Below, piece after piece: positions 5,947 to 63,800 of a stretch of 64,000 bases of DNA (its first letter is position 1; each line of letters opens with the position of its first letter). The stretch lies in NCBI GenBank assembly GCA_016179105.1, contig JACOSB010000044.1, positions 1-64,000 of the forward strand, read 5' to 3'. The notes under the pieces were generated by a model. The model saw only the letters and a program-made list of their open reading frames with translations. It had not been told where the DNA came from and did no database searches. The translations under genes and the position numbers were made by a program. The stretch comes from Candidatus Acetothermia bacterium. Lineage in GTDB: Bacteria; Bipolaricaulota; Bipolaricaulia; RBG-16-55-9; DRXL01.

Positions 5947-7125
5947 CTATGGCAGACACACTTGTCCATCCGGCAAGCCCTTGAAGGGATGATTGCCGGG
6001 GTTGCCCTTGCTGTTCTGGGTGCCCGACTTATTGTTGCCTTCAATGATATTCGCACCCTCGAAGCTCACCTGACCTGTGAAGCCGTCAAAGGAGAAACCG
6101 CATTGCTTCAGCAACGCTGTAAGGCCCCATTCGGCTTGGTTGCGAATCACGGAATCCGTGAGCCCTAGTTTGGCATTGTCCTTCACGAGAACGCCATTCG
6201 CACCGTTGTTCTCAACGACGCTGTTACGCACTTCTACACTGGCTGAGTTCTCCACACGCAGGCCATCTATTCCGGGATTGCCGGAAATCTGAGAGCTAAA
6301 AAGGCTCACTTGCGCTGCGCCGAACGCGATCAGGCCGGCGAAGAACTTGTTCCCGGTGATCCGGCTGTTCGCAAGGCGCACGCTGGCAGAATCCAAGACA
6401 ACGAAGCCCTCGCCTCGGTTATTGATTACTTGGGTGTTGCTGAGGCCAATATCTGCGTTCTCGAAGACGCGCAGGCCCGCGAGTCCGCTCTCAGAGACTT
6501 GAGAGTCCGCGAGTACCAACCGAGCTGAACCCGCGGCTTGGAGGCCGATACCGTGATTTTCAGAAACTTGAGTGTTGGTCAGACCGACTCTCGCAGAGCC
6601 CGTCACGATGAGGCCGCCGAGATCATTACTGGAGACCAGAGAATTGCTGAGCACTGCCTGAGCTGAGCCCAGTATGCGTAAGCCTACGCCATCGTTCGCC
6701 GAGATCTTGGAGTTATTGAGAGCGACGATCGCTTTGCCATCGATTCTCACACCATCGCCTAACGATCCCCGCCCCTGGCTAACCACGAGCCCCTCTAGCA
6801 CTACTGGGATTTCAGAAAGGCCGTCAATATCGAGGACTGCTTTGCCTCTCTTTTGATCTTGCCCTTTAATAAACGTCTGTTCCTGTCCTGCGCCTCGAAG
6901 TGTGAGGCTCCTTCTGACCAAAATGTTCTCTTGGTAGGTCGCCGCGAGGAGACAGATCACGGCGCCGTCAGTAACCTGGTCGATCGCTGCTTGGAGCGAC
7001 TGGTTCGGATTCAGGGTCATCGTGCACGCTTGCGGCTGAGCAAGCCCGACTTGTCCGCTATTCCCTATGGCCATGGCTACAATGAACAAAACAACACCGA
7101 CTACGAAAAACTTAAGGTTATACAT
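5947..7125 (-). CDS. Secreted right-handed parallel beta-helix protein
   Basis: A 392-residue protein with an N-terminal signal (MYNLKFFVVGVVLFIVAMA, cleavage near GLAQ). Next comes the DUF1565-like entry region (NPNQSLQAAIDQVTDGAVICLLAATYQENILVRRSLTLRG, split over residues about 43-80), then some ten coils of about 23 residues built on alternating N-x-S/Q-x-x patterns such as VALNNSKISANDGVGLRI and VGLTNTQVSENHGIGLQA. These form the right-handed beta-helix seen in NosD/CASH and pectate-lyase-like proteins. No acidic pectate-lyase active-site cluster is evident, so a structural or binding role is likelier than catalysis. A C-terminal segment with two Cys (KQCGFSFDG, GQVCLP) probably caps the helix. 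It is a shorter relative of the three big beta-helix proteins at 42627-50913. Confidence 0.75.
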   Translation of the reverse strand: MYNLKFFVVGVVLFIVAMAIGNSGQVGLAQPQACTMTLNPNQSLQAAIDQVTDGAVICLLAATYQENILVRRSLTLRGAGQEQTFIKGQDQKRGKAVLDIDGLSEIPVVLEGLVVSQGRGSLGDGVRIDGKAIVALNNSKISANDGVGLRILGSAQAVLSNSLVSSNDLGGLIVTGSARVGLTNTQVSENHGIGLQAAGSARLVLADSQVSESGLAGLRVFENADIGLSNTQVINNRGEGFVVLDSASVRLANSRITGNKFFAGLIAFGAAQVSLFSSQISGNPGIDGLRVENSASVEVRNSVVENNGANGVLVKDNAKLGLTDSVIRNQAEWGLTALLKQCGFSFDGFTGQVSFEGANIIEGNNKSGTQNSKGNPGNHPFKGLPDGQVCLP

Positions 7126-30362: not shown

Positions 30363-31906
<1,544 letters not shown>

Positions 31907-42250: not shown

Positions 42251-42322
42251 CTCCTAAACGGACGGGGACTAGTTACGTCTCCTGAGCTTGTTCAGCTCAG
42301 GACGTAAGTCCCCGTCGTAGGA
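42251..42322. repeat. 72-bp imperfect palindrome at a gene's 3' end
   Basis: CTCCTA and ACGGGGACT on the left pair with AGTCCCCGT and TAGGAG on the right, and the middle has CCTGAGC TTGTTCA GCTCAGG. Paired arms cover over 25 bases each side. The element is read as the last codons of the hypothetical gene on the minus strand (42269-42541). It may be a mobile palindrome (REP or MITE-like). Confidence 0.75.
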
Positions 42323-42541
42323 GACTGACAGAGAAATCGCTAACTTCTGGCCTTCTTCGCTCATCATTAGCGCCCGCATCTGGCGGTTGCTCTGAAGGAG
42401 TTGGATGAGGTCGTTGGCCAAAAGTTGAGCGGCTTCGCGAATATACTGAAGCGATTCTTGGCTCTGAGCAGTTTCAGGGCTCGTCAAGAGTTGTTGCCAC
42501 TCATCAACCGTTCCGGTCAAACATGCCTTTGCGATTTCCAT
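42269..42541 (-). CDS. Hypothetical protein
   Basis: ATG at 42541 with the ribosome-like GGAGGAGG 15 nt upstream gives 90 residues; a start at 42598 would add 19 Lys/Arg-rich residues. The protein is helical (ESLQYIREAAQLLANDLIQLLQSNRQMRALMMSEEGQKLAISLSVS). Its last 20 residues (DGDLRPELNKLRRRN) are coded by one half of a 72-bp palindrome, so the original C-terminus was probably lost. No family is recognised. Confidence 0.45.
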   Translation of the reverse strand: MEIAKACLTGTVDEWQQLLTSPETAQSQESLQYIREAAQLLANDLIQLLQSNRQMRALMMSEEGQKLAISLSVSYDGDLRPELNKLRRRN

Positions 42542-42626
42542 AGTCGAGTTTTCCAACCTCCTCCGATGATGCTTCATCCTAGCATCGAATTTTTTCAAGA
42601 AATATGACTGCGATTACACTCAGCGC

Positions 42627-45242
42627 TTATTTTTTTCGAATGCTGGAACGATAGAGCCTAAGGGCGGTCCAGCAAAGTGAGATCGTCAGGAAGAGCATCA
42701 CGATGCCCCAGGAGTCGGGACCACTCTTGAAAGGTGTCGCGGAAGCCGTCGGGACAATTTGTGCTGCTAACACCGTTTCGTGAGATTCAGGCTTGGGTGG
42801 TTGAGCCAGTCTAATGCTTCTGAATCTAGCAGCCTCATGCTCAGAAGCTGTTTCATTCACTCTTGTATCAGTCGTGTGATCTAAGCTTTTTGTTTCTTCA
42901 GCGATGTGCGTCGTCTCATTCTGTTCGGAATCCTCGGGTTCAAGCGCTATTGGGTCACGCGTGGGAAACTTCATGGGCAAAGGCCACACACCCGCCATCG
43001 TGAGCGAAGCAGTCTCCGGCGCGAGCGCGATGACTCCCTCCAACTGCTCGAGTCGCGCCTCGGCGACGATACGATTCAAATCAGGCTGAGGCCAACTCGG
43101 CAATGGGTTCCATTTCCCGTTCGTGTACGAGAAGACCCGCAACTGGTTCTCAGTGATGCCTCTGGTAGAAAGCTCAGCCGTGTCGTAGTAGATCGTGAAA
43201 TCGGCCACGCCTGAATCAAAGCCGCGAATCAGCACATAATAGTAGCTGATGCCGTTGGACATCGTCTGCACGTCGCCCGGCACATTGAGATAGCGTGCCA
43301 GCGTGATGAGCGCAGGGGCCTTGACTTGGTCTTGGCCGGCTTGACGAAGCTCGTGGAGCTCGAGATCGATGCCAACGGTGTCATGTGCATTAAACTGAAC
43401 CCGATCTCCCCCCGAATCCCTGATGAGCTTTCCAGCCACCGAAGCGAAATTAACTTCCTCGGGGGATGCCGGGAGCCAGGGCACGATCTGCGTGGGGTCA
43501 AGGCCGACGACAGCATTTCCTCCCCCGGAGAAGCCACCCGCGGGGCCTTCAGCTACACCCCAAAAATTGCGGCGCGCGTTCAGATTGGAGACTCCGCTCG
43601 CCATCACACCGAACTGCAAGTTTTGCTCGATCGTGTTGCCCTGCAGATCGACATCGGCAACTTTCGTGAGCGAGACACCGCCGCCACTGTTCGCGCGAAT
43701 CGCATTTCCCGCCGCCGTGACGTTCATCACTTGCTCGAGTTTTAAACCCTCGCGATCGTTACCAGAAATTTCGTTGTTGGTAAGTCGCAGCGCTTCGCCC
43801 TGACGAAAACGCAAACCCTCTTGGATGTTCCCCCGAATAATATTTTTGCTCAGCTCGGTAGAACTTGCGTCCTCAAAATAAAACCCAGCGTGCGTGTTGC
43901 GCTCGACAGTATTTTCAGTAAATGTATTGCCAATACTTTCTTCCAGATATATGCCGGATTTCCCGTTGACAGCGATCTGGTTGCCGGAAAAAGTATTTTT
44001 ATCTGATTTTTGTAATTGGACCCCGTGCGAACCGTTGTCATGAATCGAGTTCTTCGTTATTACTTCGTGACCCGCGCTAGCAATAAACAAACCAACGCCA
44101 CTGCTGCTCCAGATTTCATTCGTCTCTAACTGATTCTGGCCATCGCTCGCGGCGATCAGGATGCCGGCCTCGTCAGAATCAGATATTTTATTCTGAGCAA
44201 TGTGATTGTTTGAGGGTCGTCGGGATTCGTATTCAGAAAACTTAATTCCGACCGAGTTGGAATCGATGATGTTTCCGACAATTTCACTGGAAGATGTATC
44301 TCCGTAGAGAGAAATCCCGGCCGAGTCGGAGCTTTGATTTTGTTCGATCGCATTGCCTTCGACCCTCGCATTCTTGCTGTCTTGCAAAATTATTCCAGAG
44401 CGCTTTTGAAGCTTGACTTGGTTCTGAACGATTTCAACGGAAGAAACGTTTTTCAGAAAAATGCCCGTGCCGTTGCTCGTGAGCTCGTTCTTCGCCACGC
44501 GGGCCAGACTCACGTCGTCAAGCAACAGGCCGGCGTCGCCGTTTCCAGAGATCGTATTCTGTACGATCTCCGCTGGCTGGCTCCTCGCCATTCGCAACCC
44601 AGCACCTTGATTGAGCAAGATCCGGTTGCTCACCAGAGCGACGCCGAACGAAACTTCGACTTCGATGCCTGCGCCGAAGTTCCCTCTCATTGCGTTTCCC
44701 GAGACGCTCACGTCCCGGCTGCCCGAGATTCTCATCCCAGCGACCGAGTTGTACAGCATCTCGTTTGCCTGCAGCTCTATCTTTTGGCTGTGAGTCTGGA
44801 CGTCAATTCCAATCTCTGCCTCGCGCGCGCGATTCTTGACGATCTGCGCTCCGTTCGCGGCGATCGCGAGCGCGGCGGGTTTGTCTTTCGCGACCACTTC
44901 GAAACCCTCGAAGTGCACGTTATTCGCTAAAATTTTGACTTGGCCGATGATCTTCGTTTGATCCGGCCCGCGTTCCGAGACGATCGTCAATCCTTCGATC
45001 GTAATGGTTAGGTCTCCGGTGTAGACGCCCGGAGCGACCACAATCTTTTCGTACGGCTTAGGAGGCGGGAAGGCGAGTGCGGCGGAGATCGTCTTAAAGT
45101 GTCGATCTCCGTTGGTGTCCTCGTCAGGGGGAAGGCTCGCATCGACATAGGAGATGGGGTCCGAGTGCGAAGCGAGTGCCGGCACTACAATGCCAGCAAG
45201 ATTCAACGCCAACAGAACCCAGACAAAAACTATCCGGCCCAT
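42627..45242 (-). CDS. Right-handed beta-helix surface protein with C-terminal anchor
   Basis: An 871-residue protein. Signal MGRIVFVWVLLALNLAGIVVPALA; then a lead-in (YVDASLPPDEDTNGDRHFKTISAALAF, VVAPGVYTGDLTI) and about 25 beta-helix coils of 22-24 residues (ENTVERNTHAGFYFEDASSTELSKN and similar), as in NosD/CASH proteins. A cap contains RRNFWGVAEGPAGGFSGGGNAV and FPWLP-type sequence. A beta-sandwich-like domain follows (ENQLRVFSYTNGKWNPLPSW), then a Glu/Thr-rich linker and a C-terminal membrane span WGIVMLFLTISLCWTALRLY with a basic end. So it is exported and anchored by its tail. It has two sisters at 45694 and 48520. Confidence 0.8.
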   Translation of the reverse strand: MGRIVFVWVLLALNLAGIVVPALASHSDPISYVDASLPPDEDTNGDRHFKTISAALAFPPPKPYEKIVVAPGVYTGDLTITIEGLTIVSERGPDQTKIIGQVKILANNVHFEGFEVVAKDKPAALAIAANGAQIVKNRAREAEIGIDVQTHSQKIELQANEMLYNSVAGMRISGSRDVSVSGNAMRGNFGAGIEVEVSFGVALVSNRILLNQGAGLRMARSQPAEIVQNTISGNGDAGLLLDDVSLARVAKNELTSNGTGIFLKNVSSVEIVQNQVKLQKRSGIILQDSKNARVEGNAIEQNQSSDSAGISLYGDTSSSEIVGNIIDSNSVGIKFSEYESRRPSNNHIAQNKISDSDEAGILIAASDGQNQLETNEIWSSSGVGLFIASAGHEVITKNSIHDNGSHGVQLQKSDKNTFSGNQIAVNGKSGIYLEESIGNTFTENTVERNTHAGFYFEDASSTELSKNIIRGNIQEGLRFRQGEALRLTNNEISGNDREGLKLEQVMNVTAAGNAIRANSGGGVSLTKVADVDLQGNTIEQNLQFGVMASGVSNLNARRNFWGVAEGPAGGFSGGGNAVVGLDPTQIVPWLPASPEEVNFASVAGKLIRDSGGDRVQFNAHDTVGIDLELHELRQAGQDQVKAPALITLARYLNVPGDVQTMSNGISYYYVLIRGFDSGVADFTIYYDTAELSTRGITENQLRVFSYTNGKWNPLPSWPQPDLNRIVAEARLEQLEGVIALAPETASLTMAGVWPLPMKFPTRDPIALEPEDSEQNETTHIAEETKSLDHTTDTRVNETASEHEAARFRSIRLAQPPKPESHETVLAAQIVPTASATPFKSGPDSWGIVMLFLTISLCWTALRLYRSSIRKK

Positions 45243-45312
45243 GCCTGCCTCCTGCCTTGATGATGATCGCGCTCGCTAGCTCGCGGCCTCTAGAGCTAGC
45301 GCAAAAATTTCA

Positions 45313-45669
45313 CTAAGAAAGACTCGCCAGCGGCGAATACCCCTGGGGCATCAAGGCCACCGCGAGATGAACCAGCGATGCCGGCCCCGCGTTCAGCTCT
45401 TCCAAAGGAATGCACAAACGCAACTGAGAATCTTCGAGCTCCGCTTCACACGGAAGCTCGATCCAGCGCCCTCGCTCGCTGGCGAAGACGATAATTTGGA
45501 TTCCATCTCTGGCGTCAAAATCTTCGGGCACATCCAACTTCAGCTCCAGCTGCCGGGCAGCGAATCCTCCCACCACCAGGTCGATAAAGCGCATGGCGCT
45601 GTTCGGGCGGAATCGTGGCCGGAGCCCCTCCAGTGAAGTTGAGATTGTGTTATCGATACGACGATTCAT
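45313..45669 (-). CDS. Hypothetical, similar to the C-terminal domain of the beta-helix proteins
   Basis: A 118-residue protein without a signal. LELKLDVPEDFDARDGIQIIVFASERGRWIELPCEAELEDSQLRLCIPLEELNAGPASLVHLAVALMP resembles the domain with KWNPLPSWPQPDLNRIVAEARLEQLEGVIALAP in the protein at 42627, with W-x-LP and alternating strands. It may be a free copy of that domain or a small assistant. It sits between two beta-helix genes on the same strand, 24 nt from the next gene, so they are probably co-transcribed. The similarity is by eye and weak. Confidence 0.5.
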   Translation of the reverse strand: MNRRIDNTISTSLEGLRPRFRPNSAMRFIDLVVGGFAARQLELKLDVPEDFDARDGIQIIVFASERGRWIELPCEAELEDSQLRLCIPLEELNAGPASLVHLAVALMPQGYSPLASLS

Positions 45670-45693
45670 ACGTGTACGCCCCCTCCTTAGAAT

Positions 45694-48465
45694 TTATTTC
45701 CTAAACGCTTTTTGCGATCCTCCTGCGACAGCTACGGATAACTGCTCGGGCTTCTCTTCGTGCGTGAGCGCGACAACCCCTCGCCACGCCCGCGCGAAGT
45801 CCAGCCGGAGCACCGCTTGAATAATTTCTGCGATTCGCTCCATCACTCCTTTATGATAAATTTGAACTCGCGATTTGTATGGGTTGAACGTCACCGCCGT
45901 GGCGATCGTCTGCGTTTTCTCAGCCCTCTTCTCCTTGGACTGAGATGCGTGAGACGGCTGCGCCACGGGTGCGTCCGATTGCTTGTCTTGCTCTTTTTGA
46001 GTCTGAGTATTCTGTGGCTGTTCCGGAACCCTCTCTTCTTTGGATGCTGAAGGCACCGAGTCCATTGGTTGAGGCGACGTTGGAGTTTTCTTGTCGCGCT
46101 CTTCGGTCACGGTGAAGTTCCCTTTATAGAGAGCTAGTGCAAGCGTCGCGTCTTTGAGTGAAGCGGTCGATGTCGACGCGACCACGCGATTTTGCTCCGC
46201 AAGTACTTTGCTCTCGAGCGGCTGCCAAGAATTTTCTTTGAGCAAGAAGAGATGCAACATAGACTTATCTGTTCCGCTCGGCAACTCTTCGTCAGAATAC
46301 GCTGCTTCGAGTAGAGCTTCGGCTTTTGTACTCTGACTTTCACTCTGGATTGCGCTCAGCTGAACGCTCCAGAAACTAAAACTGTTTTCTAATTTAGGGG
46401 CAGACGTGGGTGGTCCCAAGCGGCGGGCGATCACGAGGCTTCCAGTCGCTCCCGCGGCCTCCGGCGAGAGCGTGACGCGAAGGCCCGCGCGCTCGGCTTC
46501 GAACGAAATTTCTCCCGTTTCGTTCGCCCACATCGTCCCTTGGGTGGTGAACCCAACCAGCGCATTGTGAGGAGCGGGCAGCCAAGGGAAAACCACATCT
46601 TGCGAGAAACCTTCTGCTTTGTCGCTGCCCGTCTGTGTGGTGTCGAGTACGAAGTTTGACGGCCCGAGCGCACTGCCCCAGAAATTACGCCGCGCCGTCA
46701 CGTCTTTCGCACTCTCATCGGCTTTGAGTCCGAACTCGGCGTTACTGAGAAAATCGTTGTCTTCAAAATCAATGATTTGAGAATTACTGACAGAAATCCC
46801 GCCGGCTCGATTGTTCATCCATTTATTCTCGACAAAATCTACTCTCTGACTATCCGTGAGAGAAACTCCAATAGCTCTATTTTCAGCCATCTCATTTTGC
46901 GTGAAGCTGACGCCCACAGAGCCACTGACACGTACACCCTCAGACAGATTCTTACTAATAAAATTCTCTTTCAGCTCAGTGTTTTTCGCATCGAAGAGCA
47001 CAAATCCGAGAGCGTTATCAGAGATCTGATTCTTTTCAAAAAGATCGTCTTCGGACGCTGTCGACTTAACGCCTTCAGCGCCGTTGGAAGCGATTTCGTT
47101 CCCTGAGATGACGCTATGTTGAGATTTTTCCATCCAGAGCCCAACTCGGCCATTATGCTCAAGTTTATTTTTTGCGATGCGCTCGCTTTTAGCTACTGCA
47201 AAGTGAATGCCGTCCGTCTGGTTAGTAGAAATATCATTCTCGTTGAAAGCATTAGAGCCATCGCTCACGTCTATTTCGACGCCCATCTCATTCTCGTGAA
47301 TTTGATTGAACGCGATCTCATTTGCTCTCGGATGATCTTCTGTCTCTTCGATCGGCGTCGGGTTGAACCAGATTCCCAATCTATTTTTCTCAATTCTGTT
47401 CCTAACGATTTGATTCGCTTCAGAATCGCTGTTGAGCTCGATCCCACTCTCGCGCGAGTGTCCAGAAATCTGATTTGCTTCGATTGTGTTGCTCGCACTC
47501 CCTTGGAGCACGATGCCGCTCGTCTCGTTGTCTTGGATAAAATTTCGGATGATCTCGTTCCCTTGAGAGTTGACGAGGAACAGGCCCGGGCCACGGTTGG
47601 CCGCGATGGTGTTTTCTGCAAAATACGTATCTTGGGCTCCCGTCAATCGTAGACCAAGACCGTTGCTGCGAATCTCGTTCTCTAAAATAACCGAAGCCCG
47701 GGCCCCCTCAACGGAGATTCCCGCACCCTGATTCAGGGAGATGGAGTTTTGGGAAAGGGTGACTCCGATGGCCGGACGCTGTACGACAACGCCTGCGGAA
47801 ACGTTGCCGGTGATCCGGCTGCGAGAAATACGTGCGCCCGATCCGGAACGGACGGCGATTCCGATAGAATTGCCCCGAACTTCGCTCGAGTCAACCTCGG
47901 TCTCGTCGCCACTCTGGATGAGCACGCCAACCTCCTGTGCTCCGAATACGACGCTTTGCCACAACTTGGCGCGCGGGCCCGCGACTAAGACCCCTCTTGG
48001 CTGGCCCTGCGCGTCGATGGTCAGTCCTTGGAGCACGATGTTTTTCGCGAGTAGCTCGATGCCTCCATGCAGCACGGTCTTCTCAGGACCCGCCGTAGAC
48101 TCGAAGACAAGTCCCGGAAGACGGACGCTCATCGTCTGGACCTCATACGTCCCTGGAGCGATGAGGATGGTCGTATTCGCCAGATGCTCCGCCTCCGCTC
48201 CTGCCAAAGCGGCGGTCAGCGTCGCGTAGTGAAGATCGCCATCCGTATCTTCGCTGGCCGGGCTGCTCGCGTCGACGTAGATCGTCCCACTGGTATGGTC
48301 TGCAGCAACGATAACGATCGGCGCGACGATTAAGAGCACGAGCCAGACTCCAAGCAGACTGCGCTGCACAACTTCTCGCTTTCTCTCGATGCCGGTTCGT
48401 CTGCACGCTGACACCCACAGGCTCGCGTTTGGTTCCTTCGTGTCAACGTGCGGACGCGCGGACAT
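45694..48465 (-). CDS. Right-handed beta-helix surface protein
   Basis: A 923-residue protein. An N-terminal span LLGVWLVLLIVAPIVIVAA lies after about 35 polar residues, perhaps a long signal. Then YVDASSPASEDTDGDLHYATLTAALAGA, TILIAPGTYEVQTMSVRL as in its sisters, and 25 or more coils (SRSRITGNVSAGVVVQRP, ENDISTNQTDGIHFAVAK) with a cap RRNFWGSALGPSNF and FPWLPAPHNAL. A C-terminal stretch of about 100 residues is rich in Lys/Gln/Ser/Pro. No catalytic motif is visible. It is part of a tandem family, 24 nt from the small gene at 45313. Confidence 0.8.
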   Translation of the reverse strand: MSARPHVDTKEPNASLWVSACRRTGIERKREVVQRSLLGVWLVLLIVAPIVIVAADHTSGTIYVDASSPASEDTDGDLHYATLTAALAGAEAEHLANTTILIAPGTYEVQTMSVRLPGLVFESTAGPEKTVLHGGIELLAKNIVLQGLTIDAQGQPRGVLVAGPRAKLWQSVVFGAQEVGVLIQSGDETEVDSSEVRGNSIGIAVRSGSGARISRSRITGNVSAGVVVQRPAIGVTLSQNSISLNQGAGISVEGARASVILENEIRSNGLGLRLTGAQDTYFAENTIAANRGPGLFLVNSQGNEIIRNFIQDNETSGIVLQGSASNTIEANQISGHSRESGIELNSDSEANQIVRNRIEKNRLGIWFNPTPIEETEDHPRANEIAFNQIHENEMGVEIDVSDGSNAFNENDISTNQTDGIHFAVAKSERIAKNKLEHNGRVGLWMEKSQHSVISGNEIASNGAEGVKSTASEDDLFEKNQISDNALGFVLFDAKNTELKENFISKNLSEGVRVSGSVGVSFTQNEMAENRAIGVSLTDSQRVDFVENKWMNNRAGGISVSNSQIIDFEDNDFLSNAEFGLKADESAKDVTARRNFWGSALGPSNFVLDTTQTGSDKAEGFSQDVVFPWLPAPHNALVGFTTQGTMWANETGEISFEAERAGLRVTLSPEAAGATGSLVIARRLGPPTSAPKLENSFSFWSVQLSAIQSESQSTKAEALLEAAYSDEELPSGTDKSMLHLFLLKENSWQPLESKVLAEQNRVVASTSTASLKDATLALALYKGNFTVTEERDKKTPTSPQPMDSVPSASKEERVPEQPQNTQTQKEQDKQSDAPVAQPSHASQSKEKRAEKTQTIATAVTFNPYKSRVQIYHKGVMERIAEIIQAVLRLDFARAWRGVVALTHEEKPEQLSVAVAGGSQKAFRK

Positions 48466-48519
48466 AGTTCTTTTCCGTTTCGGTGTATTCTCTTTTACGT
48501 TTTGACCAACGATGTCAGA

Positions 48520-50913
48520 TTACTGACCCGTGGCGACGGCAATCGCCTGTCCCTTGGTCAATAGTTCGACCGAGATCTCGGCCAAGACGATGTTCGCATC
48601 TGTCTTGACGAAGCAATTCGTCTTCTGCCAACTGCCGCCGTCGGAGGTGAAGAGACAGAGCTTCTTTTCGTCAATGGTGCGAGCGTTGCCCTTCTCATCC
48701 TTGACGGAGAGCTCGGCGTCTTTGTACTCGACTTCGACCTGAGCCGTACCCTTGCGGAAGCCGGTGACGAGCACCTTCATCACCTTGACGACATCTTTTA
48801 AGCTCTTGGCGCTATCGGGCTTGCCAGGTTTGAACTTGGCGGCGATGACCGCGCCGCTCGCGTTCGAGTCAAGACCATAGAAATTCAGGCGGATGTCGGC
48901 CTTGTCAGTCGCATCGAAGTTGGCCCGATCGCTGCCGAGCTTGTTCGTCAAGAAACCCGAGACTGACGTCTCGATGAGATCGGATTGTGACGCGATCAGC
49001 CACGGGAAGACAACCGCTGGCCCCGTGCAAACGATCACGGGGTTGCCGCGACCTTCAAAGGCACCCGACGGCCCGCTCGGATCGCCCCACCAGTTGCGAT
49101 CCATCTTTAGCCCCTCAATAGCCGGACAAGCTTTCACACCAAACTGGATATTGTTTGAGATGTCATTGAACTCGAGATCAATACTCTTGCTATCTTTGAT
49201 CTCCATGCCACCCATGTAGTTACCGCTCACAACGTTATGATCCATGTCAACTTTTTCAGAGCCAGACTGGACCAAAATGCCCGCACGGTAGTTTCTCATA
49301 AACTTGTTGCTGCGCACATCGGTGTCCTTGGCCCCGTCGAGTTTGAGGCCGTTAAAGCGGTTTGTCTCGACCCCGTTGTTGGTGATGTCGTTGTTGGTTG
49401 CGCCGTTTTTGACGACGATACCATCTTCTTCGTTATCTTTGATGTTGTTGCCTGAGATGGTGTTGTCGTTAGCGCCGTCGAGATCAACACCCGCGCCTCC
49501 GTTGGAGAGGATCGGGTTGTCCTTCACAATATGGCGTTTGGCTTTCATCAACCAAATGCCCTGTCTGCCGTTGTCTTGGATCTTGTTGTTGGCAAACGTA
49601 TCGTTGTTGGCCATTTCGTCTACTTCGATCGCCGCTGCGTTGTTGCCCGTGAGGGTGTTGGACTGGAAAATGTTGCGACCGCGGCTGGCCACGACACGGA
49701 TACCTTGCTCATGATTGTCGGTAATCGTATTTGAAGCAAAGGTGTTGTTGCCCGGCGCAGGGCCCTGTCCGGAGTCCGTACAACCACCTTTCTCCTTGTT
49801 GAAAAAAGTCAAGCAAACGCCGATGCTGTTGCTCGTCAGCGTATTGCCCAAAATAACATTCGCTTCGGCATCACCGGCTAGCAAAATGCCCTGCGCGCCC
49901 CCAACTCCGTGGTTAGTGATCTTGTTGCCCGTGACTGTGTTCTTCTTCGCGGGACCGTTGTCGCCGCCCTTGAGTTCGATACCGCCGGCATCGTTCTTGT
50001 AGATCTCGTTATCGCGAACCTCGGAGTTATCCGAAGATTGGAGCGTGATGCCGTAGCGCTTGTTCGAGGCGACTCGCGGGTTTTTCAAAATTTTGGTGCC
50101 GTTGGCTTTGAAGACCGCGACACCGTTGAGCTTGTTGTTCTCAAGTTCAGCGTTCTCTGAGATCACACACTCATCGGCGTCCATGATCATGACGCCGTCG
50201 GCGTTGTTGAGCGCGATGTCGTTCTTAGTAATCAAACAACGATCGCTGCCTGCGCTGATTAAGATGCCCGTCGAGCCATTGCTGCGGACCAAGCTCTCGA
50301 CTACTTGGAAGTCATCGCTCTCCGAGTCAACCTTGACTCCCTCCGCACCGTTGTTGTAGATCTCGTTCTTTTGTGTTTTGACCCCATCGGCACCCTTCGT
50401 CACAAAGAGGCCTGCGCCCTTGGCGTTATGAATTTTGTCTTCACAAATTAGAGCGTTGTTCTCAGCGACGACGATCGCGTTCTCTTTGTCCGTCCCGTCG
50501 ACGTCAAACCCGCAGAAGGTGACGTTCTTGGCGCTAATCGTGATAGAACTCTTGTTAATCTTTGTCTTATCGCGGCCAGCTTGAGATTTTAGAGTCAACC
50601 CTTTCACAGCGATATTGACATCGCCCTCTTCGTAGCTGCACGGTAGCACAATGATCGTGCCAAACTCTTTGGCGGCGGCGACGGCGTCTTTGAGCGCCTT
50701 GTAGTGATAATTGCCGTTGCCAGAGCCGTTGCAGTCCACATAGATGATCGGGCCGTTGTGGTCCGCGAAGACCGTCATGCCAAAGCCCAGCGAGAGGGCC
50801 AAACTGCTCAGAATTGTGAGCCTCCAGAAAAAGTTCTTGCGGACGGATTGATCCACCGTCTCGGAAGAACCTGCGCTCCTTTGAACCAAACAGGAGCGTA
50901 TGAGATTGTTCAT
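48520..50913 (-). CDS. Right-handed beta-helix surface protein
   Basis: A 797-residue protein. ATG at 50913 follows AGGTGACGTGT. A signal span FFWRLTILSSLALSLGFGMTVFA is preceded by a long polar N-terminus. Then YVDCNGSGNGNYHYKALKDAVAAAKEFGTIIVLP, about 25 coils such as NNTFASNTITDNHEQGIRVVASRG, and the cap RNWWGDPSGPSGAFEGRGNPVIV and FPWLIASQSDL; then a beta-sandwich (VEVEYKDAELSVKDEKG and SDGGSWQKTNC). It lacks the C-terminal anchor of the 42627 protein and its coils are richer in Lys and Asn. No ion or sugar active site is evident. Confidence 0.8.
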   Translation of the reverse strand: MNNLIRSCLVQRSAGSSETVDQSVRKNFFWRLTILSSLALSLGFGMTVFADHNGPIIYVDCNGSGNGNYHYKALKDAVAAAKEFGTIIVLPCSYEEGDVNIAVKGLTLKSQAGRDKTKINKSSITISAKNVTFCGFDVDGTDKENAIVVAENNALICEDKIHNAKGAGLFVTKGADGVKTQKNEIYNNGAEGVKVDSESDDFQVVESLVRSNGSTGILISAGSDRCLITKNDIALNNADGVMIMDADECVISENAELENNKLNGVAVFKANGTKILKNPRVASNKRYGITLQSSDNSEVRDNEIYKNDAGGIELKGGDNGPAKKNTVTGNKITNHGVGGAQGILLAGDAEANVILGNTLTSNSIGVCLTFFNKEKGGCTDSGQGPAPGNNTFASNTITDNHEQGIRVVASRGRNIFQSNTLTGNNAAAIEVDEMANNDTFANNKIQDNGRQGIWLMKAKRHIVKDNPILSNGGAGVDLDGANDNTISGNNIKDNEEDGIVVKNGATNNDITNNGVETNRFNGLKLDGAKDTDVRSNKFMRNYRAGILVQSGSEKVDMDHNVVSGNYMGGMEIKDSKSIDLEFNDISNNIQFGVKACPAIEGLKMDRNWWGDPSGPSGAFEGRGNPVIVCTGPAVVFPWLIASQSDLIETSVSGFLTNKLGSDRANFDATDKADIRLNFYGLDSNASGAVIAAKFKPGKPDSAKSLKDVVKVMKVLVTGFRKGTAQVEVEYKDAELSVKDEKGNARTIDEKKLCLFTSDGGSWQKTNCFVKTDANIVLAEISVELLTKGQAIAVATGQ

Positions 50914-51151
50914 ACACGTCACCTCACTATAGAGATAAGCCTGAAGCCAACCTCGGCATCATTGGTTTGGATTATAGGGGACACCCGGCACCGGCGTATG
51001 TAACTGGCGTCACTGCAAGATTAGAAAAAAGTGCGATGGGGTGCCGTACTTGAGTTACTTCACGGCTGGGGATTTGCGAGGGTGTATTTGTGGACGATGG
51101 CTATGTAGTCGAGATTACACTCCGAGCTTTCGACGTTTCTGGAGTTATTTC

Positions 51152-60837: not shown

Positions 60838-63800
60838 TTAGCGCACGATGATCAGCTTGCGCACTTCGCTCTGCAAGAGGACTCCCGCTTTGTCGCGCAG
60901 GCTCACCACATAGAGATAGACGCCATTCGCTAAGGGCTGATGGCGGTCGGTAGCTGCTAGTAGAGTCAACGCACCGCTCGCCTCCGTCTTGTCGATCAGG
61001 CGTCGCCCGCTCAAGTCGAAGAGTTGCAGCCGCATCGACTCAACCGCGCGATCGGTTTGCAGGATCAATTCATTCCCGCGCAGCTGCAAGCTGAGGCTTT
61101 GTGGTGACAGTTCTTCATCGGACACCGAGGCTGACCCACCCGCGCCACAGCTGATAAAACTGGTGAAATACGGACCCAAGACCGTGAGGGGCAAGGGGCC
61201 CGCTGCTTGGGTCTTGATGGTAAATTTTTGCTTCTTCCCGGGTTGGATCGTCTTGGTCGTCGGGTTAGGAGAAATACTCACGATCGTGAGAGGCAGGCCC
61301 GTCTTATGCGCGATGCTCGTGATATTCACCGGCGTCGTGCCCCCGTTTTTGATGGTTAGGTTGAGGGTTTTCAAGTTGAGGTTCTTGTAGACCACTGCCG
61401 TCGGGCTGGACGTCGCCGTGACGCCCGTGCAGGGAGGCGGCGGAGCTCCTAAGCTCACAGTTGCCCGGATGAGGAAATTGCCCGCCAAGTTTGAGCCGAA
61501 CGTATCAATCACGCTAAACGTTGCCCCGTCCGAGGAAACGTACGAACGCAATTGCGAGGGCGAGTCATGATCCTGAGTGACAGGGCCGATCCCGGGAGGA
61601 TAGTTCACCGAGAAACCGACCACGAAATCCCCGGAATTGATCGTCAGCGGAGAAGAGAGAATGTACACATCACCCGTCCGTCCCACGAAACCGACCGAGG
61701 TGTTGATGCTCTGGAAAGTGATTCCGTCGATATTACTGTTGCCGCTGGGATTGGTGCCGGCCAACAAGCTGATGGGTGTGTTCACCGGCAGCGAAAACTT
61801 GCTCGCTGGGAAGAGGATAAGAATCTTCTTGAGCGTCGCCGGATAGCTAGGCGGCGTGAGACGGTTGACGAAGTAGCCTGGGGAACCCCCGCCGGGGAAA
61901 CCAATGAATTGCTCAAATGAACCATCGTCTACTTTCAAGGTAGCAATCGTAGTTGGGGGAAGCGGCGGCGGAGCGGGGAGATTCACGCGGAAAGCGCCGC
62001 GTCCGTAGGTGAAAGCCATCAGTGTGTTGGTGGCATGATTGACCGCGAGATCGAGGACCGCCACATTGGGAATTCCATTCGCCGGGCCGATCGTGGTCCA
62101 CTTGCTGCCCCCCTTGTCGCTGCGAAGAATGCCTAGATCGGTTCCGACATGGATGACACTGGGATTGAACGGGTCTACCACAATGGCGTTGAAGGGAATG
62201 TTCACCGCAGGGCTGATGTTTTTCCAGCTGGGTGAAACTGCCGTGGCGCTGGTGGTCTTGAAGGCGTGCCCCGGCTGGCCGGGCGTGCCTTCATCAAAGC
62301 CCGAGAACGTCGCGTAGAGCGTGTTCGCATTGGTGGGATCGAACGCAAGATTGGTGACATATCGGTTGGGAAGGCCGGTGCTGATGTCAGCCCAGCTCGC
62401 GCCACCGTTGAGGGTGATGAAAATTCTTCCCGCGGTGCCGACGGCGTAAATATTACAAGCGCCATCGGATTCAGCGAAGGCCATGGCCGTGATGGGGAAT
62501 CCCGGATGCGGGGGATTGGGCCGCAGTGGGTCGGGGCTGTTGGAGAACCAGGTGGGAGTGGCGGGAGTGCTGCTGAAGAAGTTGTTCGTGCGCCAGACGT
62601 TGTCCGTGCCCACGATCACCACGTCGTCGTCGTTGGGGCACTTCTTCATTCGTGGAAGAAAAGGCTGGCCCGTCTTATCTATACCTGTGTCAACTTCCCT
62701 AAAGAAATGCACAGATCCAGTGTTGAAGCGCAATATCGTGAAGCCCGCGCCAGTGAGACCCCAGCTCGTGTCGGGGTCCGTAGCTGAGATGATGCTATCT
62801 CCTCCGTCAGAGATGAAGAACTCTGTCCAAGCGCTGCTGCCCGTGAATTCAACATCGCCGTTGTCTTGGGCACCCCCAAAGGCCACGTTAGGATTGGTGG
62901 GATGGAGGCTGCCGGAGTAGAACTGCGTGATCGCCAGATTCGTGTTGTGATTGGTCCAGGTGCTCCCTCCATCGCTGGTGCTCCAGACCCCGCCGTCGCT
63001 GCCCACGATGAGTCGGCTTCCCACCCAAACGAGCGCATGGTGGTCAGGATGGACGCGATTCGTAGGGCCGCCTATGCCTTGTACATGACTGATCTCTGTC
63101 CACGTGGGAGATGCTGTACACGAACTACACTTCCACAAGTAGATTCCACCGGCATATAAGGTGTTGTTGTCCGCGGGGTCGACGATAAGTTTATGATCGT
63201 AACCACACTGGGCTTCAACATTGTGGAAAAAACCATCCCAACCGCAATAGCCGTGGATACCCGTGCCATCGTCGGTGGCTCCTACGGGGATTTGCGTCCA
63301 TGCAGGAGTCGCTGCCCAGGCGTTATCGGTGCGCCACAGACCCAGCAGCTCGCCGTTACTAGCATTTGTGATGCTTACGTACACCGTGCTAGGGTTTGAG
63401 GGAGCGATGGCCAGTGCGACTCGATCCACTCCCCCGGACAACCCGGTCCACGGGCCGCTCACGAACGTCCATGTGTCTCCGCCATCCGTAGAGCGATACA
63501 AGCCGTTCTCTGAACCTCCAAAGAGCCCCGCGTATTGGTTATTAAAATTCGTGGGGTCTGCATCTAAATCGGTGGCAAACCCCTGCAACTTGAGACTCCA
63601 GTTGGAGCCACCGTCGGTCGATTTGTAGATGCCCGCGGCGGGGGCAGAGAGCGGAGAGGCACAGGCAAACTTTCCGCCAGCTTGACCGAACACGGTCGTG
63701 GCCAAGACCGTATTGGGGTCCGTCGGGTGCACTTTGAGCTTAGTGAAGTTTCTGTGGGCAAAGACAGCGGTACCCAGCAGAGTCCAGCTGCCGCCGCCAT

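Follow-up and report, generated by a model that had tools for sequence, protein, structure and literature searches.

Three long genes, A, B and C, and one small gene, S, lie one after another on the minus strand, arranged as A-B-S-C with intergenic gaps of 54, 24 and 70 bases, in the 64,000-nucleotide stretch of DNA analysed here (the window). The A/B/C set is real, conserved and order-specific, it brings in a domain that is not catalogued, and one of its genes, without a leader, oddly encodes half of that domain. The explanation that we favour, with moderate confidence, is that A, B and C are ancient, co-inherited, exported rods of one non-enzymatic cell-envelope assembly particular to the order, whose function we infer. 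The genes and the shared parts of the long proteins are:

Gene A, 48520..50913, minus strand: 797 aa; leader, YVD at residue 58, β-helix of ~21 coils, RNWWG cap, FPWL and C-terminal sandwich, without a tail
Gene B, 45694..48465, minus strand: 923 aa; plan as in A, plus a charged tail
Gene S, 45313..45669, minus strand: 118 aa; leaderless half-sandwich, residues 23-112 resembling the second half of the sandwich
Gene C, 42627..45242, minus strand: 871 aa; plan as in A, then a linker and a C-terminal membrane anchor predicted from hydropathy
Predicted right-handed parallel β-helix of A, 49099..50661, minus strand: 63 short strands in ~21 coils (PF13229, E 2e-49; AlphaFold2 pLDDT mostly 90-98)
RNWWG...PW cap region of A, 49005..49098, minus strand: RNWWG and PWL invariant across 15 A sequences
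C-terminal β-sandwich of A, 48523..49005, minus strand: undescribed domain, predicted by AlphaFold2 with pLDDT 84 and pTM 0.81
Sandwich of B, 46126..46587, minus strand: matched to the A and C sandwiches by hhalign with a probability of 99.7-99.8%
Sandwich of C, 43011..43481, minus strand: assigned by sequence comparison

The ATG start of A lies at 50913, and an in-frame GTG is also present upstream at 50922. Promoter and terminator scans performed no better than on shuffled sequence. Directly 3' of C lies a small open reading frame (42269-42598, 109 aa, TTG start) without a Pfam match or a relative in the loci examined.

In pairwise BLAST comparisons, A, B and C were 28-30% identical over 765-829 aa (E 1e-80 to 1e-99) and nearly collinear, in agreement with the earlier note, made from the sequence alone, which had described three long tandem proteins with a shared plan. 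Coil register, an insertion in the same coil, cap and sandwich are common to all three, and this, together with the end-to-end alignment, implies common descent of the whole proteins beyond that of the repeats alone. Judged from their sequences, A, B and C are true paralogues. Autocorrelation of both hydrophobicity and identity peaks at a lag of 23-24. The YVD motif is found in all three proteins, while the cap reads RRNFWG in B and C and RNWWG in A. FPWL, previously taken as universal, holds for A and B only, and C has VPWL instead. The full combination of YVD, ~21 coils, RN[FW]WG, PWL and sandwich is present in A, B, C and their orthologues, with YVD replaced by FVD or TVD in some of the latter.

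All three proteins match Pfam Beta_helix at E 1e-49 to 1e-56. They score far above the cut-offs of PF13229 and TIGR03804 (for PF13229, 168-189 bits against a curated cut-off of 25.9), and thus belong among the β-helix repeat proteins, which they resemble in repeat, coil length and predicted fold. However, the PF13229 and TIGR03804 models cover the repeat only, and the cap, the sandwich, the anchor and the tandem arrangement of A, B and C fall outside them.

The three proteins differ in their tails, as had been claimed: C carries an anchor (by hydropathy), B a charged tail of ~145 aa and A none, A ending at the sandwich in all genomes with a complete A. Two tail features are involved:

C-terminal transmembrane segment of C, 42654..42710, minus strand: residues 845-863, hydropathy 1.7, followed by basic residues
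Amphipathic segment in the B tail, 45766..45855, minus strand: about residues 871-900, corresponding by homology to the stretch that follows the second PWL of two-module B proteins

Among A, B and C, a C-terminal hydrophobic segment followed by a basic end occurs only in C. The same arrangement is seen in the C proteins of loci L044, L046 and L048; the C orthologue of L045 has no C-terminal segment above the hydropathy threshold. The B orthologues of L044 (4616-8263, 1216 aa) and L045 (4476-7934, 1153 aa) contain two β-helix modules and two PWL caps. In B of genomes G011 and G013, the second β-helix is the shorter one, and the second PWL is followed by a further C-terminal stretch. The B tail segment aligned with the two-module B proteins with Smith-Waterman scores of 56 and 61, neither of which was reached in any of 500 shuffles. 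Since the tail aligns with the segment after the second PWL, the charged tail of the window's B, which ends early by comparison, may be read as the leftover of a lost second module.

In order to trace the set among relatives, a profile of cap plus sandwich (A2) was searched in 60 genomes, i.e., the window's own and 59 relatives. With matches of E 1e-30 or better, A was detected in 14 of the order's 18 other genomes. Two of the four order genomes without A are incomplete and belong to the window's family, and the other two are both genomes of one other family. Elsewhere in the class, the A2 profile gave two weak sandwich-only matches. A deeper sandwich profile, searched in 100 genomes of the phylum, returned the same distribution together with clear sandwich-only matches in one family (f8; G023, G032 and G035). 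Cap and sandwich together were not found outside the order among these 100 genomes, and plasmids gave no match to the combination. Based on best-match assignment, the A-B-C tandem is present in G011 and G013 (Candidatus Fraserbacteria OFTM103; locus L044) and an A-C tandem in G012 and G015-G018, some of these being interrupted by contig ends, while in the sister genera of the window's family A is followed by S without B and C (seven genomes). Homologue searches thus place A across the order, in A-B-C, A-C or A-S arrangements. C orthologues were assigned in L044, L045, L046, L048, L049 and L050, and a partial one in L051. We take the Fraserbacteria to belong with the Acetothermia lineage. They are rarely mentioned in the published literature, where no such system was found described. 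At 3.7 Mb, the window's genome is about double the length of those of its family relatives (G001-G009, 0.9-1.9 Mb), some of which are similarly complete. A complete 16S rRNA gene lies at 30369-31906 on the minus strand; neither a 23S nor a 5S match was obtained elsewhere in these 64 kb, which suggests that the rRNA genes are not linked.

In the tree, the A type forms a single clade across the order (support 100/100). B and C join by long branches and for this reason are not cleanly separated. A is under strong purifying selection (dN/dS ~0.06-0.1 in close pairs). The genes flanking the set vary by genus (RibD/HtrA/YggT, PdxS, NYN domain, AMP ligase), and no consistent functional link through neighbouring genes was seen in the loci examined. 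As the tandem is kept while its flanks vary, the set appears linked to itself and not to a pathway.

AlphaFold2, run with an alignment of six sequences, predicted for A a ~21-coil rod made of 63 short strands, with pLDDT >90 over most of it, and next to the rod a sandwich that forms a domain of its own (whole model: mean pLDDT 88, pTM 0.77). Foldseek comparison of this model gave 164 PDB matches at E<=0.001, headed by β-helix proteins (tailspikes, PL6 lyases and AlgG), and A is accordingly predicted to have a β-helix fold. The sandwich modelled alone (scores given above) found no PDB match at E<=0.001 by Foldseek, and its sequence gave no PDB match and no meaningful Pfam or NCBIfam match. It is best called an undescribed domain by comparison with Pfam, NCBIfam and PDB. 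The sandwich model resembles a viral model, A0A6J5SXR0 from an uncultured Caudovirales phage (Foldseek E 1.8e-4, TMq 0.60). In the f8 matches, which come from a different family of the class, the sandwich sits among PKD, cadherin and lamin-tail domains (L102:2148-5348, L103:1504-3438, L060:7986-9929 and L059:2-1921), a setting that fits a structural extracytoplasmic module.

The predicted rods could belong to polysaccharide-active β-helix enzymes (lyases, epimerases or hydrolases) or to exported polysaccharide binders, in which case the sandwich would be an accessory domain for binding. Among solved structures, tailspikes, PL6 alginate lyases and AlgG come closest by overall fold (for AlgG, 4ozy with 343 aligned columns at 3.2 Å), and weak sequence matches to AlgG and AlgE were obtained. 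Conserved acidic and basic turn residues in A (D224, R225, D295, E298, R300 and R460) also make a site of a new kind possible. However, any long β-helix yields fold and sequence matches of this sort, and the NCBIfam AlgG model gave 26-41 bits against a cut-off of 700. A, B and C share the right-handed β-helix with AlgG, AlgE and the PL6 lyases, and AlgG ranks with the solved rods that superpose best, but the active-site motif of AlgG and AlgE is missing. The DPHD motif of AlgG and AlgE carries the catalytic His (PMC4444821). DPHD and DPHE are both absent from A, B and C, and the DPHD position aligns with KVDS in A, on which grounds an AlgG/AlgE-type epimerase was rejected. No His is conserved among the A proteins, Y94 is the sole conserved aromatic of the helix, and the sandwich belongs to no known family; a known enzyme with a full catalytic site was looked for and none was recognised in A, B or C. 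Carbohydrate genes are not consistently nearby, which, with Y94 as the only conserved helix aromatic, also speaks against the polysaccharide binding proposed in the earlier note. We regard an enzyme or a polysaccharide binder as a minor but genuine possibility.

The place of the rods depends on the envelope. The genome encodes an Omp85-type (BamA-like) protein and one SLH protein, and LptD was not found in it. Resting on these single genes, Omp85 without LptD suggests a simple diderm, which agrees with the Thermotoga-like simple diderm envelope that has been proposed for the relative Acetothermia Ran1 (PMC6092417). In a probable diderm, the C-terminal anchor of C would make the protein face the periplasm, and the anchored C is more likely periplasmic than part of a surface layer. 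SlpA/OmpM and Omp-alpha, which connect the outer membrane to the cell wall, combine SLH, a coiled coil and an outer-membrane barrel (PMC9388160). A, B and C are like these connectors only in the role proposed for them, as extended envelope organisers of deep-branching diderms, and differ in being built of β-helix, sandwich and, in C, a C-terminal membrane anchor.

The earlier note had suggested instead that the proteins build a polysaccharide-binding surface layer or fibres, to which the protein of a gene at 5947 would also belong. Exported rods, several paralogues and the lack of a recognised catalytic site are in keeping with such a layer. Against it stand the anchoring of C in the membrane of a probable diderm, the leaderless S, and the lack of any S-layer hallmark in A, B and C by Pfam. 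The 5947 protein is a β-helix, but it lies ~35 kb away and was rejected as a family member, with YVD, cap, PWL and sandwich all absent. Pfam Beta_helix matches ~40 separate open frames across many contigs of the 3.7 Mb genome, the 5947 gene being one of them, and β-helix proteins in themselves are ordinary in this organism. We consider a surface layer of this composition decidedly improbable. At 60838-63732, the window also encodes a 964-aa BNR/sortilin-like repeat protein with a weak match to a T9SS-type C-terminal sorting domain (TIGR04183, E 0.008, below the cut-off).

The similarity of S to the sandwich, noted earlier, proved to be real homology, but confined to the second half of the domain (hhalign probability 94.7%, score 49.1; none of 60 column shuffles scored above 20.4, and the reversed control scored 17.0). 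The A/B/C sandwich profile alone also recovers an S orthologue (E 6e-4). A candidate ribosome-binding site precedes the gene:

Shine-Dalgarno-like AAGGAGGGGG, 45679..45688, minus strand: 9 bases before the ATG of S

Together with the purifying selection on S (dN/dS ~0.13-0.19 in close pairs), this site indicates a working gene. S has no hydrophobic leader by hydropathy and should thus remain cytoplasmic, unlike the full sandwiches, which are exported. S lies downstream of A in all eight family genomes that have A, and it was not found in the other genomes searched of the class. The A-S pair in sister genera without B and C argues that S is not a recent local split, as it had first been taken to be.

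S might nevertheless be a decaying remnant without function that broke off from the second sandwich of an ancestral B with two modules. It is a half-sandwich that starts 24 bases after B, and the B tail is homologous to the segment that immediately precedes the final part of the two-module B proteins. When S was aligned directly with that final part, however, the L044 score was at chance level (reached by 31% of shuffles) and the L045 score was reached by 4%. In profile comparison, no closer relation of S to the C-terminal part of two-module B (hhalign 3%) than to the A/B/C sandwiches (94.7%) was detected. Decay is further opposed by the purifying selection, the good ribosome site and the retention of the A-S pair in sister genera that have no B. 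A split origin of S is possible, but a loss of its function does not fit, and as a whole this account is very unlikely.

NosD-like assembly factors, which would mature a metalloenzyme with an ABC transporter, are likewise exported β-helix proteins and PF05048 matches A, B and C (E 1e-40 to 1e-49), but this role was rejected as barely credible, since the three proteins add the cap-sandwich part and score below the subfamily cut-off (NCBIfam TIGR04247, 95-101 bits against 300), the genome (93% complete) holds no NosZ above the cut-off, the NosZ profile being matched partially, below the cut-off and in its C-terminal part, and no NosF-, NosY- or NosL-like gene, and hence no ABC partner, is among the nearby genes examined.

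Each of the three proteins has a leader, a predicted rod of ~21 coils (~10 nm long, as estimated at 0.48 nm per coil), a cap and a C-terminal sandwich. If A, B and C do form one envelope assembly, C would be held in the cytoplasmic membrane via its C-terminal anchor with the rod outside, and A and B, which are without an anchor, may use their caps and sandwiches to attach to C or to one another. In the periplasm of a simple diderm, such rods could act as a scaffold, spacer or binding platform, with scaffold or spacer having most in its favour, and the cytoplasmic S may pair with sandwich segments ahead of export. We infer the co-assembly, the periplasmic place, the scaffold function and any role of S. 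Counting against joint assembly, seven sister genomes have A (with S) but neither B nor C, so A must have a role without them. That the free rods A and B stack on the anchored C via the new sandwich and so span or space the periplasm, while S is devoted to helping the sandwich fold or assemble, appears unlikely to us.

The envelope-organising proteins of deep-branching diderms are mostly unknown. If the favoured reading is correct, a self-contained β-helix envelope module with an uncatalogued sandwich would be added to the knowledge of these bacteria, and S would be a leaderless half-domain maintained by selection beside exported full-length copies.
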